Origin: a virus | Direction: 5' to 3' (one strand) | IMG/VR virus record: IMGVR_UViG_3300032214_001462 | Location: 1 to 64,000 of that record | Length of the DNA: 64,000 nucleotides | In this document: one piece after another, positions 10,763 to 61,864 of the stretch | How the letters are laid out: each line of letters begins with the position of its first letter | How positions within the stretch are numbered: the first letter of the stretch is position 1 | Translations under genes and position numbers: made by a program | Notes under the pieces: generated by a model | What the model was told of the DNA's origin: nothing | Database searches by the model: none | What the model saw: the letters and a program-made list of their open reading frames with translations, nothing else

Positions 10763-11233
10763 CTACTGGGCTTCAAGCTCATCAGCAATAGCGAGCAAGC
10801 GGTTCTTAACACCAAGCAGCGCCCAGTGCTCTTCTGGCGTCTGAGCTTTAATTGGTACTGGCACCACCTGATCCGCAGCGGCGCGAAGGGCGGCGGCGGC
10901 TATCTGTCGAGCTTCGTTGAGGCAATCTTCTGGGCCATAGGCGCTGCTGTTGTTGGCGGCATCCAGCACCGCCTGCGCGGCGGGGGAGAGGGGTGCGGTC
11001 ATTGGTGGCCCCCAGCGGGTCAAGGCTTCCGCAATCGCGTTCTCAAAACCAACTTCAGATCCTTCGCCCATGTGGCGATAGAACAACTCGGTCACATCAC
11101 TGTCCCTCGGCCTCTCCCCCGTCTCGGCCAGCAGTGCGCGGGCACGTTCCAGTAAGTCATGGTGCTTCATATCCACTGCGTAGGTGTTAAAGGCAGCGTG
11201 AAGCTCAGCGCACAGTGCTCGGAAGTCAGTCAT
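10763..11233 (-). CDS. Picocyanobacterial-type hypothetical protein, GC-rich cassette gene 3
   Basis: 156 residues, Ala- and Leu-rich, helical, with PLSPAAQAVLDAANN and an ALRAAADQVVP stretch that reads like host chromosomal open reading frames of marine and freshwater Synechococcus. The base composition is clearly richer in G and C than the neighbours. It overlaps the preceding cassette gene by 8 nt. Function unknown; recent acquisition from a host or co-infecting phage is inferred from composition. Confidence 0.65.
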   Translation of the reverse strand: MTDFRALCAELHAAFNTYAVDMKHHDLLERARALLAETGERPRDSDVTELFYRHMGEGSEVGFENAIAEALTRWGPPMTAPLSPAAQAVLDAANNSSAYGPEDCLNEARQIAAAALRAAADQVVPVPIKAQTPEEHWALLGVKNRLLAIADELEAQ

Positions 11234-11753
11234 CGAGTTGCTCCAGTGCGCGGCGGATGGTGTCGGAGTTGCAAGTTCCCATGTTCTCCAATGCGTCTAA
11301 TTCACTGAGTGCACGCTCCTTCAAGCTCGGCGGCTTGGGGCGGCGGACTTCCTCCTCCCAGTTGATAACCTCATCGTCTCGGCCAATAGCGCGGGCTACC
11401 TGATCCACCAGCGAACTATCAACTTGGTTTGAAGTAGAAGTTAGCGTCATACCAACCCTGAAGTTGGGCGTCAGCAATGCCTGTAACTCCGCCTGTTGCT
11501 TTGCAGTAAGTTTCAAAGGCTTGCTGATCTGGTAGATCTTTGATGTTTGGCGTTCAGCAGCTTCCAGAGATTCAACCCGACTACACAAAGCCAAAATGTT
11601 TGCATGGGTTTCGACGATGTGCTTGTGAGCTGCATCTTCTAGCACCTTTACCCTGGCGCGGAGTTCAAGGATGCAGGCTTGAGCGTGGCCGTCCCGACGA
11701 GCCCAATGCTCCGTGTCGGCCCATTGCTCGGGCGTTGCTGTGTGGTCAGTCAT
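11226..11753 (-). CDS. Picocyanobacterial-type hypothetical protein, GC-rich cassette gene 2
   Basis: 175 residues. The N-terminal half is a coiled-coil-like helix. The C-terminus has RRPKPPSLKERALSELDAL and ends IRRALEQLDD. That tail is repeated in the next gene upstream, so the two are paralogues or share a domain. The tail is familiar from hypothetical proteins of Synechococcus/Cyanobium and their phages. Overlaps both neighbours by 8 nt, indicating a coupled operon. Function unknown. Confidence 0.65.
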   Translation of the reverse strand: MTDHTATPEQWADTEHWARRDGHAQACILELRARVKVLEDAAHKHIVETHANILALCSRVESLEAAERQTSKIYQISKPLKLTAKQQAELQALLTPNFRVGMTLTSTSNQVDSSLVDQVARAIGRDDEVINWEEEVRRPKPPSLKERALSELDALENMGTCNSDTIRRALEQLDD

Positions 11754-14586: not shown

Positions 14587-14660
14587 TGCCTGCTGACGGA
14601 TTCGAACCGACACTGAACGAGGCTTAAACTCGTCGCCTCTACCAGTTGGGCTAAGCAGGC
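14587..14660 (-). tRNA. tRNA-Leu (anticodon UAA), short variable arm
   Basis: Acceptor GCCTGCT pairs with AGCAGGC. The D arm is GCC/GGC with AACTGGTAGA; the anticodon stem is ACGAG/CTCGT around TTTAAGC, giving anticodon TAA. The T arm is GTCGG/CCGTC around TTCGAAT, with one T-T mismatch. No CCA is encoded. Decoding UUA would suit an AT-richer phage in a GC-richer host. The variable region has only five bases, unlike the long arm of bacterial tRNA-Leu. The upstream gene's stop codon lies inside the acceptor. Confidence 0.8.
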
Positions 14661-37537: not shown

Positions 37538-37605
37538 TAAAATTTGTGTTAGATAAGACACGTGTGTCTTTATCTTTCACCCGATAAAAACACTGACACT
37601 GGAGG
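37538..37605 (+). promoter_or_regulatory. Promoter box, 5' stem-loop and SD of the capsid gene
   Basis: TAAAAT at 37538-37543 is followed by AAGACAC-GT-GTGTCTT extended to AGATAAG and TATCT arms with one bulge (37551-37575), then GGAGG at 37601-37605. A transcript beginning after the box would start with the stem-loop, a known way of stabilising abundant capsid mRNA. The hairpin may also end upstream transcripts. Confidence 0.5.
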
Positions 37606-37629
37606 ATAAACCAAGGTGTTTATTGATAG

Positions 37630-38184
37630 CTAGTTCAGATCCTGGTAGGTATGACCCTTCAAGATTTGGTAAATAGCTCCGTGATTGCAATCAAATTTTT
37701 CGGCAATTTTTCTATAAGAAAGACCAGCCTCTTTTAAAGATTTGATTTGATTCACGTCACCCGAAGAAAACTTTCTCAAAGACTTCTTCGGTTTTCCTTT
37801 ACTGGCAAAGCCATTGTTTTTATAACAACCACTTTCCCAGGCTCTTGTTAAATTCTCTTGTTTGGTAACAATCTCAAGATTGTCAAGATAATTATTTCTC
37901 TTGTCATTATCTTTGTGATCAACTTGCAAGGAAAAGTTACTGGTTCCATGAGAACGCAGATCTAATCCTAAAAATGCAACTGCCATCAAGACATGAAGAT
38001 GAAAACGCTTTCTCTTCCCGTCAACAAGAACTGAGATGCGGTCGTAAACACTGGTTGAACTGATTGGAATCTCTAAAAAATATTCTTGATTATCGGGATC
38101 AAGTTGTTTTTCAAAAGCTTTTCCTTCTTCAGTTAAGTAAAGATTACCAAATCCTGGAACAAGTTTTGGATTCATGTTGTTCAT
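37630..38184 (-). CDS. HNH homing endonuclease, antisense to the capsid gene
   Basis: 184 residues from ATG at 38184 (38175 or 38208 also possible). HNH motif: LQVDHKDNDKRNNYLDNLEI with His, Asn and Asn positions, followed by VTKQENLTRAWESG. The C-terminus is a helix-turn-helix: INQIK-like helix, then GLSYRKIAEKFDCNHGAIYQ. This pairing of HNH_3-type nuclease with an HTH is typical of phage homing endonucleases. It lies on the opposite strand next to a group I intron core, so it may drive that intron's mobility. Confidence 0.8.
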   Translation of the reverse strand: MNNMNPKLVPGFGNLYLTEEGKAFEKQLDPDNQEYFLEIPISSTSVYDRISVLVDGKRKRFHLHVLMAVAFLGLDLRSHGTSNFSLQVDHKDNDKRNNYLDNLEIVTKQENLTRAWESGCYKNNGFASKGKPKKSLRKFSSGDVNQIKSLKEAGLSYRKIAEKFDCNHGAIYQILKGHTYQDLN

Positions 38185-38230
38185 AAACAAGTTTCCAAAT
38201 AGTAACATGCCTCAACTGAACGCTCAACGT

Positions 38231-38469
38231 TGTCACCTCACCGAGCAATCGATGAGTGCAAACCGGATGAATTCAGGGAAGCCCTAACGTAAAGACGAGG
38301 GTAATCCTGAGCCAAGCCAATCAAGCGTGATTGGAAGGTGCAGAGACTAGGCGGCTGGTGACGCTTCACCTGTAATACGCCATTAGCGTCCGGCATCCCA
38401 CAGGGATGAAGAGATAGTCCACCCCTCTAAGAAACTAGAGACCAGGAGAACGATTTTCCAAAAATCTTG
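38231..38469 (+). ncRNA. Group I intron (IA type) in the major capsid gene
   Basis: Paired elements can be drawn: P3 CCGGATG (38263) with CGTCCGG (38387); P4 TCAGG with CCTGA; P6 CCAAT with ATTGG; P7 GACTA (38345) with TAGTC (38415); P7.1 GGCG with CGCC; P7.2 GGTGA with TCACC; P8 CATCCC with GGGATG; P9 CTCTA with TAGAG. P7.1/P7.2 indicate subgroup IA. The 3' end is probably after TTG at 38469 (terminal G). The 5' end is uncertain: it may be at about 38230, or near 37627, which would place the HNH gene inside the intron. Confidence 0.8.
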
Positions 38470-39600
38470 GGTGCGGAACTTTATCGCCCCCACCCTGCTT
38501 ACATCGCAGAAATGGCAGTCGAGCCTGTGGTCGTTCACGACTTCACTCGTCAGCCCGGTCAAACTGTTCAGTTAGATCGCTATAAGTTCTGGGGTACCCC
38601 TGGTACTAAGGACAGCCGTGAGCGTATTGCCGATCAAACCATCGGTACCGCTAACAGCCGCAACATCACGAAGGAGAAAGTCCTTGTGGTGCTGAAGGAG
38701 TACACTGGCCCTGCAGACCCGGGTGATCCGACTCAGCCTTCTACCTTCAAGATTGCACGTGAAACTCTGATTACCGCCCAGCGTCTTCTGCTGGACACCG
38801 GTAACCTGAATATGTTCCACCAGTCGATCGGTAGCCTGACGCTGCTTGACGACTATCGCCGTTGGCGTGATCGCGTGTTCATTGATGAACTCGCCAAAGC
38901 AGAAGCCAATGGTGCTGCCTCTACTACCCAAGGCGGTTACTACTTCCCTGGTGCTAAGACCAAGAACGCTTCTGGTCAGATCACCTATACCTCTGATGAG
39001 TACACCGCAGAAACTCAGCAGTTCCAAGTGCGCACCGATCTTCTGACTGTGGTCAAGGATCTCCGTAAGCGCAACACTCCTACCTTCGCTGATGGTCTGT
39101 ATCGCTGTATTTGCGATCCAACCTTCATGATGCACCTGCGTCGTGATCCTGACTTCCGCGAAATCGCACGTTACTCCGGTAACCCTGGCCAAGGCATGTA
39201 CATGGGCAACCCCATGATGCCTAACAACGCCAGCTTCTACATGGGTCCCCAGGCTGGTCAAGGTTACTTCCTGGCTGGCGAACCTGTAATGCCTACTGGC
39301 GTGCAGTTCGAAGGTGTTAAGTTCTTCGAGTCGACCAACTTCCCGACCAAGAACGTCAGCGCTTCGTTCAACAACGGTTCTACCTACACCTCCCAGGAAG
39401 TTGCACAAGGCTACTTCTTTGGTCCTCAGTCCATCGGTGTTGGCATCGGCGGCCCTAATGCCCAGGTGCTCATCAACAACAACGATGACTTCAGCCGTTT
39501 CATCATCCTGATCTGGCAACTGTATGCAGGCTTCGAGATCCTGAACAAGGACTTCGTGACCACCGCATTCAGCTTCGTTCAAGACGACGGCAACATCTGA
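38467..39600 (+). CDS. Major capsid protein (downstream exon)
   Basis: About 377 residues of capsid protein begin GAELYRPHPAYIAEMAVEPV. It is the gene with the strongest C-ending codon bias of the late arm, fitting a very highly expressed product. The true N-terminus lies upstream of the intron. One option is GTG 37616 (VFID, SD GGAGG at 37601); another is ATG 38207 (MPQLNAQR, no SD). Both join in frame to GGT at 38470. Identification as capsid rests on position after portal/scaffold, size, codon bias and the downstream decoration-like gene. Confidence 0.8.
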   Translation: MGAELYRPHPAYIAEMAVEPVVVHDFTRQPGQTVQLDRYKFWGTPGTKDSRERIADQTIGTANSRNITKEKVLVVLKEYTGPADPGDPTQPSTFKIARETLITAQRLLLDTGNLNMFHQSIGSLTLLDDYRRWRDRVFIDELAKAEANGAASTTQGGYYFPGAKTKNASGQITYTSDEYTAETQQFQVRTDLLTVVKDLRKRNTPTFADGLYRCICDPTFMMHLRRDPDFREIARYSGNPGQGMYMGNPMMPNNASFYMGPQAGQGYFLAGEPVMPTGVQFEGVKFFESTNFPTKNVSASFNNGSTYTSQEVAQGYFFGPQSIGVGIGGPNAQVLINNNDDFSRFIILIWQLYAGFEILNKDFVTTAFSFVQDDGNI

Positions 39601-59440: not shown

Positions 59441-61864
59441 ATGGCCCTTTTTCACGACAGTGCAATCGTTGGTGCAAGCGGACAAGCTGGTGGTGCACAA
59501 TATAAAATTGAGCGCAGCCTGAGGTTTAACTCAGCGGACTCGGCGTACCTCAACCGCACACCAGCATCAGCGGGCAACAGGAAGACGTGGACTTGGAGTG
59601 GGTGGGTCAAAAGAAGTGCGGTTGGCTCCGGCGACCAAATGCTTTTTTCGACTGGCACTACTGGGGCTACCACATCGGCCGTCATCTTTTTTAGAAACGA
59701 TGCTTTTGTATTCTCTACTCTTTCCGCCGACATCTTAGCCACATCTGCTCTGTTTCGTGACCCTTCCGCTTGGTATCACTTCGTTGTCTTATTTGATTCT
59801 ACGCAAGCTGCTGCCTCGGCTCGGCTTCGCTTTTTTGTGAACGGATCAGAAATTAGCCAGTTCTCCATCGATGCTCGGTTGACGCAAATCTCTCAAAATA
59901 CGGATTACGGGTTTAATCTTAATCAAGTGCACGAGATAGGTCGTTTTACATTTGATAGCTCTCGCTATTTGAACGGTTACCTCGCGGACGTTCACTTCAT
60001 CGACGGCCAAGCCCTAACTCCCACGAGCTTCGGCGAGTTTGATACCAATAACATCTGGCAGCCCAAGGCATACACCGGCACCTACGGCACTAACGGGTTC
60101 CAACTTAAGTTTGCTGATAACAGCAACAACACTGCCACCACACTCGGTAAAGACACCAGCGGCAACGGCAATAACTGGACACCAAATAACCTCAGCGTGA
60201 CGGCTGGTGCTGGTAACGATTCGCTGGTAGATAGCCCGACGAACTACGGCACCGACACAGCCGCTGGCGGTGAGGTGAGGGGGAATTATTGCACTCTGAA
60301 TCCGCTTGCAAAAGGTTCTGCACTGACGCTATCAAATGGCAATCTAGACTTAAGTGATAGCGGCAGCGCGTCTCCAGTAGTAGGCAGTACGTTTGCTGTA
60401 AACTCCGGCAAATGGTATTATGAAGTCACGCTTGGAAACCAATTTTCATATATTGGTTTATCTGCGCCTACAGTTTTATCTACCTCTGTAAGTTTTCTTG
60501 GTGCTATATCTGGTCAGATAGTATTTAACACTGGCACAACCTCATTTAGTTGGATAGATGGGGTTGTGTATAACTACTCAACTGCATCATCATGTACTAC
60601 AGGTGATGTAATAGGTGTGGCGTTAAACTTTGATACCGGCGTACTTACATTTTACAAGAACGGTGTAAGTCAAGGACAATTTGGAACAAATGTATTAACT
60701 GGTCGGACATTAACTCCAGCATTTAAATCGAATACGTCTACATCCGCGTCATTTAATTTCGGCCAACGCACCTTCGCCTACCCGCTAAGCGGATTCAAAG
60801 CACTCTGCACACAAAACCTGCCCACACCCACCATCACCAATGGTGCCACCGTCTTTGACGCCAAGCTCTACACCGGAAACGGCAGCACGCAAACCATTAG
60901 TGGGCTAGGGTTCTCGCCGGATTTTGTATGGCTAAAAGCACGAAATAACAGTTTTGTTCACGGCTTATTTGACACGGTGAGAGGGGCTTCAAGGTTCCTT
61001 GTTTCAAACAGTACAGTCGCAGAGCTTGTTAACGAGGTAGATGGATTCCTGTCTGCTTTTAACTCTGACGGATTCACTCTTTCTGCGGGCACCAACTCTT
61101 CAAATACGTTCAACTCAAATGCAGGCACACAAGTTGCCTGGTGCTGGGACGCGGGCAGCTCTACCGTCACCAACACACAAGGCAGCATCACTAGTCAGGT
61201 GAGGGCAAATGCTAGTGCGGGGTTTTCGATTGCTACTTTTACAGGACCAACATCAGGCACAAGCACTGTTGGGCATGGATTAAATATTGCTCCAGGGCTG
61301 ATCATTACCAAAGTAAGAAACTTAACCGGAGGTGGTTGGGTTGTCTACCACTCAAGCATCGGAGCAACCGGCTCGTTGGCATTAAATTCAACAGCTGCAA
61401 CTGACACAAACATTGGTTATTACAACAACACTGCGCCCACGTCTTCTGTTTTCAGTCTTGGAAGTTTCTACGCAATTTCTCCTACTCCTTATGACTTTCT
61501 TGCCTACTGCTTCGCCCCAGTAGCCGGGTACTCTAGTTTCGGCAGCTACACCGGCAACGGCAGCACAGATGGGCCGTTTGTTTATACCGGATTTAGGCCG
61601 AAGTTTGTGCTCGTGAAAGGCAGCTCTACTGTTTCTGAATGGTGGATAAACGACTCAGTGAGGAGTGCCTACAACCAAACCGCAAACAATCTGGTGCCCA
61701 ATAGCTCTGCGGCAGAATACACGGCAAATGATTTTAATTCCATTGATATCCTGTCAAACGGATTCAAGATGCGAAATACCAACAACAGTTCAAATGCCAA
61801 TGGCAATACCTACATCTACGCCGCCTTCGCCGAATCACCCTTCCAGTTTTCTAGGGCGCGCTAG
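59441..61864 (+). CDS. LamG / SPRY-like tail adhesin
   Basis: 807 residues. Residues 25-190 form a concanavalin/LamG-like domain (TWTWSGWVKRSAVGSGDQ, LNGYLADVHFIDGQALTP). Residues 285-440 are SPRY-like (GKWYYEVTLGNQFSYIGL, GVLTFYKNGVSQGQFG). The final 330 residues hold repeated FDTVRGA- and AWCWDAG-type blocks seen in phage adhesins. Likely carbohydrate-binding on the host surface. Confidence 0.75.
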   Translation: MALFHDSAIVGASGQAGGAQYKIERSLRFNSADSAYLNRTPASAGNRKTWTWSGWVKRSAVGSGDQMLFSTGTTGATTSAVIFFRNDAFVFSTLSADILATSALFRDPSAWYHFVVLFDSTQAAASARLRFFVNGSEISQFSIDARLTQISQNTDYGFNLNQVHEIGRFTFDSSRYLNGYLADVHFIDGQALTPTSFGEFDTNNIWQPKAYTGTYGTNGFQLKFADNSNNTATTLGKDTSGNGNNWTPNNLSVTAGAGNDSLVDSPTNYGTDTAAGGEVRGNYCTLNPLAKGSALTLSNGNLDLSDSGSASPVVGSTFAVNSGKWYYEVTLGNQFSYIGLSAPTVLSTSVSFLGAISGQIVFNTGTTSFSWIDGVVYNYSTASSCTTGDVIGVALNFDTGVLTFYKNGVSQGQFGTNVLTGRTLTPAFKSNTSTSASFNFGQRTFAYPLSGFKALCTQNLPTPTITNGATVFDAKLYTGNGSTQTISGLGFSPDFVWLKARNNSFVHGLFDTVRGASRFLVSNSTVAELVNEVDGFLSAFNSDGFTLSAGTNSSNTFNSNAGTQVAWCWDAGSSTVTNTQGSITSQVRANASAGFSIATFTGPTSGTSTVGHGLNIAPGLIITKVRNLTGGGWVVYHSSIGATGSLALNSTAATDTNIGYYNNTAPTSSVFSLGSFYAISPTPYDFLAYCFAPVAGYSSFGSYTGNGSTDGPFVYTGFRPKFVLVKGSSTVSEWWINDSVRSAYNQTANNLVPNSSAAEYTANDFNSIDILSNGFKMRNTNNSSNANGNTYIYAAFAESPFQFSRAR

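Follow-up and report, generated by a model that had tools for sequence, protein, structure and literature searches.

The window, that is, the whole 64,000-nt stretch analysed here, is part of an 80,662-base (80.7 kb) IMG/VR virus record and carries a major capsid gene whose start is interrupted by a predicted group I intron with a homing endonuclease gene on the opposite strand (Table 1). The capsid protein shares 87% identity with the capsid of Synechococcus phage S-EIV1, its sole match among 50,697 phage records, and it also matches the major head protein family phrog_1357 (E 1e-16); the virus is an S-EIV1-like cyanophage. The leader hairpin, the GGAGG box, the GTG at 37616 and the antisense HNH-HTH reading frame described in the initial annotation are all confirmed in the sequence. 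Rfam finds a single group I intron in the window, as a 239-nt match to RF00028 at 38203-38441 on the plus strand (95.5 bits, E 2.3e-23; gathering score 50), and these 239 nt correspond to the 239-nt intron of the initial annotation. The only other match to an Rfam RNA family in the window is a tRNA gene at 14587-14660 on the minus strand (RF00005, 53 bits).

Table 1. Features of the capsid gene start and its intron, with one feature of a sister-lineage locus (positions are those of the window unless another locus is named; a slash marks a splice site).
Feature	Position	Strand	Basis
Capsid leader hairpin, AGATAAGACACGTGTGTCTTTATCT	37551..37575	+	sequence and predicted fold
Shine-Dalgarno sequence of the capsid gene, GGAGG	37601..37605	+	sequence; conserved in relatives
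Exon 1, GTG TTT ATT GAT (MFID), last U at the 5' splice site	37616..37627	+	intron-less relatives
P1, 5' strand UGAU/AGC, predicted to pair with 38229-38235	37624..37630	+	predicted fold; U-A to C-G compensatory change
Group I intron (predicted), 821 nt	37628..38448	+	intron-less alleles; RF00028 match
HNH-HTH homing endonuclease gene, 181 aa, ATG 38175 to TAG 37632-37630	37630..38175	-	wholly inside the intron
P1 extension, 5' strand GUUCAG, pairing with 38216-38221 across the ORF	37633..37638	+	covariation
Extended -10-like motif TGTTACTAT, candidate own promoter of the HNH gene	38199..38207	-	conservation
P1 extension, 3' strand CUGAAC	38216..38221	+	covariation
Internal guide sequence, CGUUGUCA	38228..38235	+	invariant in 54 introns; compensatory changes between lineages
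Catalytic core from P2 through P9; possible IA-like extra stems separate P7 from P3'	38236..38441	+	RF00028 alignment
Exon 2, starting NDFPKILGAELY...	38449..39600	+	phrog_1357 match; spliced frame
Free-standing endonuclease of the sister lineage, locus L424	1675-2136	-	phrog_3377 match

The extent of the intron can be read from relatives that lack it. S-EIV1 has a continuous capsid start, as do 57 of the 80 closest IMG/VR capsid loci, and there the empty site reads GTGTT[TC]ATTGAT/AACGA[CT]TT[CT]CC or a close variant, and the remaining 23 loci carry an intron exactly between GAT and AAC. Because these intron-less relatives give an uninterrupted gene start, the splice sites are fixed exactly at 37628-38448, in the context GTG TTT ATT GAT, intron, AAC GAT TTT CCA, between codons 4 and 5. 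The intron-less alleles thus place the end at 38448, so that the position first given, 38469, lies 21 nt too far; the idea of one intron of about 840 nt with an antisense endonuclease, the first of two layouts considered at that stage, is borne out at 821 nt by the same alleles and by covariation in the extension of P1. The hallmarks of group I introns are present, namely the U37627.G38232 pair, the terminal G38448 and a P10 of AACG with CGUU. A 35-nt insert lies between P7 and P3' in the RF00028 alignment, in the place of P7.1/P7.2, which would make subgroup IA a candidate assignment. Two other placements were discarded: the P1 that Rfam itself sets at 38203 (AUGCCUCAA with UUGUCACCU) contains many non-standard pairs, and the exon-based P1 was used instead, while an insertion placed at GTG TTT ATT GAT AGC T/, for which G38452 would be the 3' site, keeps the frame but is contradicted by the empty alleles.

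Splicing at 37628-38448 is predicted to create the junction ...TTTATTGAT-AACGATTTTCC (GAT/AAC) and an in-frame capsid protein of 387 aa beginning MFIDNDFPKILGAELY... (MFID/NDFPKILGAELY), the N-terminal peptide of which would then be MFIDNDFPK; unspliced reading from the GTG gives MFIDS and then a stop. The annotation of such phages is corrected by this, in that their capsid genes start four codons upstream of an intron overlooked by gene callers. In the S-EIV1 record KJ410740.1, a hypothetical protein annotated on the minus strand (60784-61545) covers the beginning of the capsid gene, and the forward capsid CDS is annotated from 61540; this is probably a misannotation.

Pairing at the 5' end of the intron reaches across the endonuclease gene. 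The guide GUCA is predicted to pair with UGAU of exon 1 to form P1, with a U.G pair at the splice site, and the guide CGUU with AACG of exon 2 to form P10. In P1, a U-A pair is replaced by C-G between lineages, and in the P10 of locus L449 a C-G pair is replaced by U-A, a change mirrored in exon 2 (AAT with AUU). The 5' strand of the P1 extension overlaps the final HNH codons, and the helix is rebuilt in other contigs as ACUCAG with CUGAGU, GCUUAG with CUAAGC, GCUCAG with CUGAGC, and GCUCCA with UGGAGC; five of its six pairs are altered on both strands, pairing is kept in all aligned variants, and the covariation score was matched by none of 500 shuffles. This pairing across the ORF places the antisense HNH gene within the loop that the extended P1 closes. 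Free folding of the P1 region of the ORF-less intron L046 favoured another fold, and single-sequence folding was therefore given no weight.

The second layout considered in the initial annotation, a short intron of about 239 nt beside a free-standing antisense HNH gene and spread by collaborative homing, is rejected for the window. The empty alleles miss all of 37628-38448 together, HNH gene included, the two strands of the P1 extension covary with the ORF between them, and ORF-less versions of the intron retain the same ends. The Rfam match does start at 38203, as a short intron would, but a local 5' exon matching the guide is absent at 38200, and the exact layout, although known in a sister lineage, is formed there by other genes.

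The endonuclease gene was initially listed as a 192-aa frame from ATG 38208, a start that shows no conservation, whereas ATG 38175 is kept in 53 of 54 introns. Its product matches Pfam HNH_3 (E 7e-9) and the HNH endonuclease family phrog_59 (E 6e-26), and the C-terminal HTH is weakly detected (HTH_38, E 1e-4, a sub-gathering score only). I-HmuI (1U3E) is both its sole solved sequence relative (E 3e-5) and the sole significant fold match of its AlphaFold model (E 3e-7), with TM-scores of about 0.5 for a model of moderate confidence (pLDDT 80, pTM 0.61). Three copies in other contigs (L300, L301, L329) read VNH instead of VDH in the HNH motif, and their enzymes are possibly altered or inactive. 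The ORF is intact in all 54 distinct full-length introns of the first set, its stop in each case being the same TAG, two bases into the intron. On average, dN is 0.054 and dS 0.537 (ratio 0.10), third codon positions vary most, and the other five frames over the region contain 5 to 17 stops on average; judged from these comparisons, the HNH gene is under strong purifying selection.

That ratio, together with the finding of no broken copy among the 54 distinct full-length introns, argues against the intron being an inactive relic with a dead HNH gene and vertical inheritance. ORF-deleted introns and the VNH variants would fit such a relic, but the HNH motif of the window is intact and the occurrence of the intron on the capsid tree is patchy, which leaves this explanation very unlikely. 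The arrangement itself is constant among close HNH loci: the capsid leader lies on the expected side in 80 of 80, and the gene is antisense within the same intron in all 74 that extend to the 3' end. Relatives as distant as 54% identity (L526) share the antisense placement. In four annotated phage relatives of the HNH gene at about 30% identity (Vibrio JSF38, Erwinia VL73, E. coli W70 and Alicyclobacillus KKP_3916), the gene has the same orientation as those around it, and an annotated antisense intron gene is absent in the phages that share the intron core (Vibrio, Klebsiella, S-SRM01 and S-CBWM1).

Between the guide and the HNH start codon, at a nearly constant distance, the extended -10-like motif TGnTAYnnT occurs in 57 of 83 distinct ORF-bearing introns, versus 5.5% in shuffled regions, and is absent from the other 26. 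The motif is suggestive of a possible HNH promoter; a stricter promoter and terminator scan, with counts near the shuffled expectation, found nothing at the HNH start. An RNA made from the HNH gene would overlap the 5' P1 strand and could extend into the leader, and the gene might accordingly be kept as a regulator, through antisense RNA over the 5' splice and ribosome sites. It might also be kept as a weapon that cuts the capsid genes of co-infecting competitor phages, in the manner of the exclusion by an intron endonuclease known in nucleus-forming jumbo phages. Either role in place of homing is improbable, since purifying selection at the codon level shows that the protein itself matters, and exclusion and homing can coexist.

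The mobility of the intron was assessed on a FastTree phylogeny of 193 distinct capsid genes that used sequence no closer than 200 nt to the intron site. Intron presence changes state at least 40 times on this 193-tip tree, against a mean of 65 for shuffled labels, and the count is approximate, as some FastTree branches are weakly supported. The distribution is patchy and at odds with vertical descent, pointing to repeated gain or loss. Capsid divergence between the intron-bearing and intron-less classes is no greater than within each class. The two classes do differ in the leader upstream of the site, intron-bearing phages having a distinct type, and leader type tracks the intron 15:0 in supported independent contrasts where the leader differs. 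The simplest reading of this linkage is homing with co-conversion on the 5' side; it could instead reflect selection for a leader that matches. Exon 2 gave no signal of co-conversion. The contigs were chosen by pattern, so that their counts are not population frequencies, and metagenome contigs, in which assembly of mixed populations could blend intron states, supply most of the evidence. Three intron-less loci (L045, L077, L079) have GAC instead of GAT before the site, which may represent resistant sites or intron loss, and two of them, L077 and L079, carry the intron-type leader.

It is very probable that the locus holds a mobile group I intron after capsid codon 4, with an antisense I-HmuI-like HNH-HTH gene in the loop of the P1 extension, and that the element probably homes. 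The ribozyme, comprising P1 with the guide, the core, P9 and the terminal G, would excise 821 nt and join GAU to AAC. The HNH enzyme would probably nick or cut intron-less capsid genes near GAT/AAC during mixed infection, and repair would copy the intron plus part of the upstream leader. With the HNH gene placed antisense to a highly expressed late gene, the question arises of how its enzyme comes to be produced; transcription probably starts at a promoter of its own within the intron.

Natural ORF-less introns, including L046, measure 268-325 nt, keep both ends and in some cases contain ORF remnants; by these sequence features, they are deletion derivatives of the ORF-bearing intron. A different ORF-less intron, of 233 nt, occupies the same capsid site in 4 of 80 loci (L424, L449, L451, L454) of a sister lineage with the gene start ATG TTC/TTT ATC GAT, where the slash separates alternative codons. 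All four loci carry a free-standing antisense endonuclease unrelated to the HNH gene (phrog_3377 HNH family, E 3e-35), the open frame of which stops 73-92 nt short of the 5' splice site on its upstream side. In L447, L448, L457 and L466 this endonuclease is present and the intron absent. The collaborative-homing layout suggested at the outset, with the endonuclease outside the intron, is found in L424, L449, L451 and L454, with other genes, and does not apply to the window, where the ORF lies inside 37628-38448.

Public contigs from this one phage group thus show, at a single site, the empty allele, an endonuclease alone, an intron next to an endonuclease gene, a composite intron and introns from which the ORF has been lost. 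Most stages expected under collaborative homing are represented there, and the relatives form a good natural series for the assembly and loss of mobile introns, bearing on the old question of how a ribozyme and a separate endonuclease gene come to form such an intron. Two unrelated endonuclease families lie antisense at this capsid start, one inside the intron and one upstream of an ORF-less intron. The antisense orientation, reached independently by both, could be an adaptation, with early expression of the HNH gene from a host-type promoter, late expression of the core and capsid, and antisense RNA delaying capsid translation or splicing until late infection; this proposal is tentative and unlikely. 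If it holds, an intron and an antisense endonuclease gene would have been joined step by step at this site into a composite mobile intron.

Introns of the I-HmuI or SPO1 type resemble that of the window, itself of putative IA type, in encoding an enzyme with HNH and C-terminal HTH domains inside a phage intron, and differ from it in that the HNH gene of the SPO1 intron is sense-oriented. Among the closest published layouts is that of mycobacteriophage LittleE, whose major capsid gene is interrupted by a group I-like intron of 819 bp; this intron contains a bottom-strand endonuclease gene and is spliced according to RT-PCR and N-terminal sequencing (PMC3706429). The insertion, at first called remarkable, is less so, since capsid introns, including one with a bottom-strand endonuclease, had already been published (PMC3706429). 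In LittleE (L536), a weak core match at 459-662 precedes the ORF at 665-1198; its ORF therefore follows the core, its enzyme is described as LAGLIDADG-like and its site lies within the capsid gene, whereas in the window the core comes after the ORF, which lies in P1, the enzyme belongs to the I-HmuI-like HNH type and the site is at codon 4/5. Myxomycete rDNA introns (I-DsqI) likewise carry a homing gene opposite to the intron strand, separately expressed, but these are group IE introns of nuclear rDNA with His-Cys enzymes, the gene lies in P9.2 and the transcript is made by RNA polymerase II (PMC9548176).

Among cyanophages, the psbA intron with the free-standing F-CphI, an example of collaborative homing (cited in PMC3428280; PMC2988022), combines an intron with an adjoining endonuclease in the layout of L424 and L449; the endonuclease of the window differs in being intron-internal and antisense, and its host gene is the capsid gene, not psbA. 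I-PfoP3I, from a group IA2 intron in the DNA polymerase gene of the freshwater cyanophage Pf-WMP3, is also a cyanophage intron-encoded HNH enzyme, with a different host gene and no antisense gene reported in the consulted portion of its source (PMC3428280). In T4, segD adjoins the capsid gene in antisense (PMC2988022), and a review of bacterial group I introns leaves antisense genes unmentioned (PMC3984707). Judged against the open literature, the combination seen here, an HNH gene placed antisense within P1 of an intron that splits a cyanophage capsid gene at codon 4/5, is well supported and, among known arrangements of this sort, new.

Further group I introns occur downstream in some capsid genes, with two Rfam matches in L526 (reverse complement) and three in L523, and in L519, L527, L528 and L529 a sense LAGLIDADG-like ORF breaks the capsid gene at QLDR/Y; from these sequences, the capsid gene gives the impression of a hot spot for introns. 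Antisense ORFs beside group I introns were also observed near the starts of other phage genes: an AP2-like ORF in L415 (about 11157-11670, minus strand), a LAGLIDADG-like ORF in L520 and an endonuclease-like or unassigned ORF in L525. In two further contigs (L163, L165), Vibrio phage terminase genes are split by three or four consecutive group I introns.
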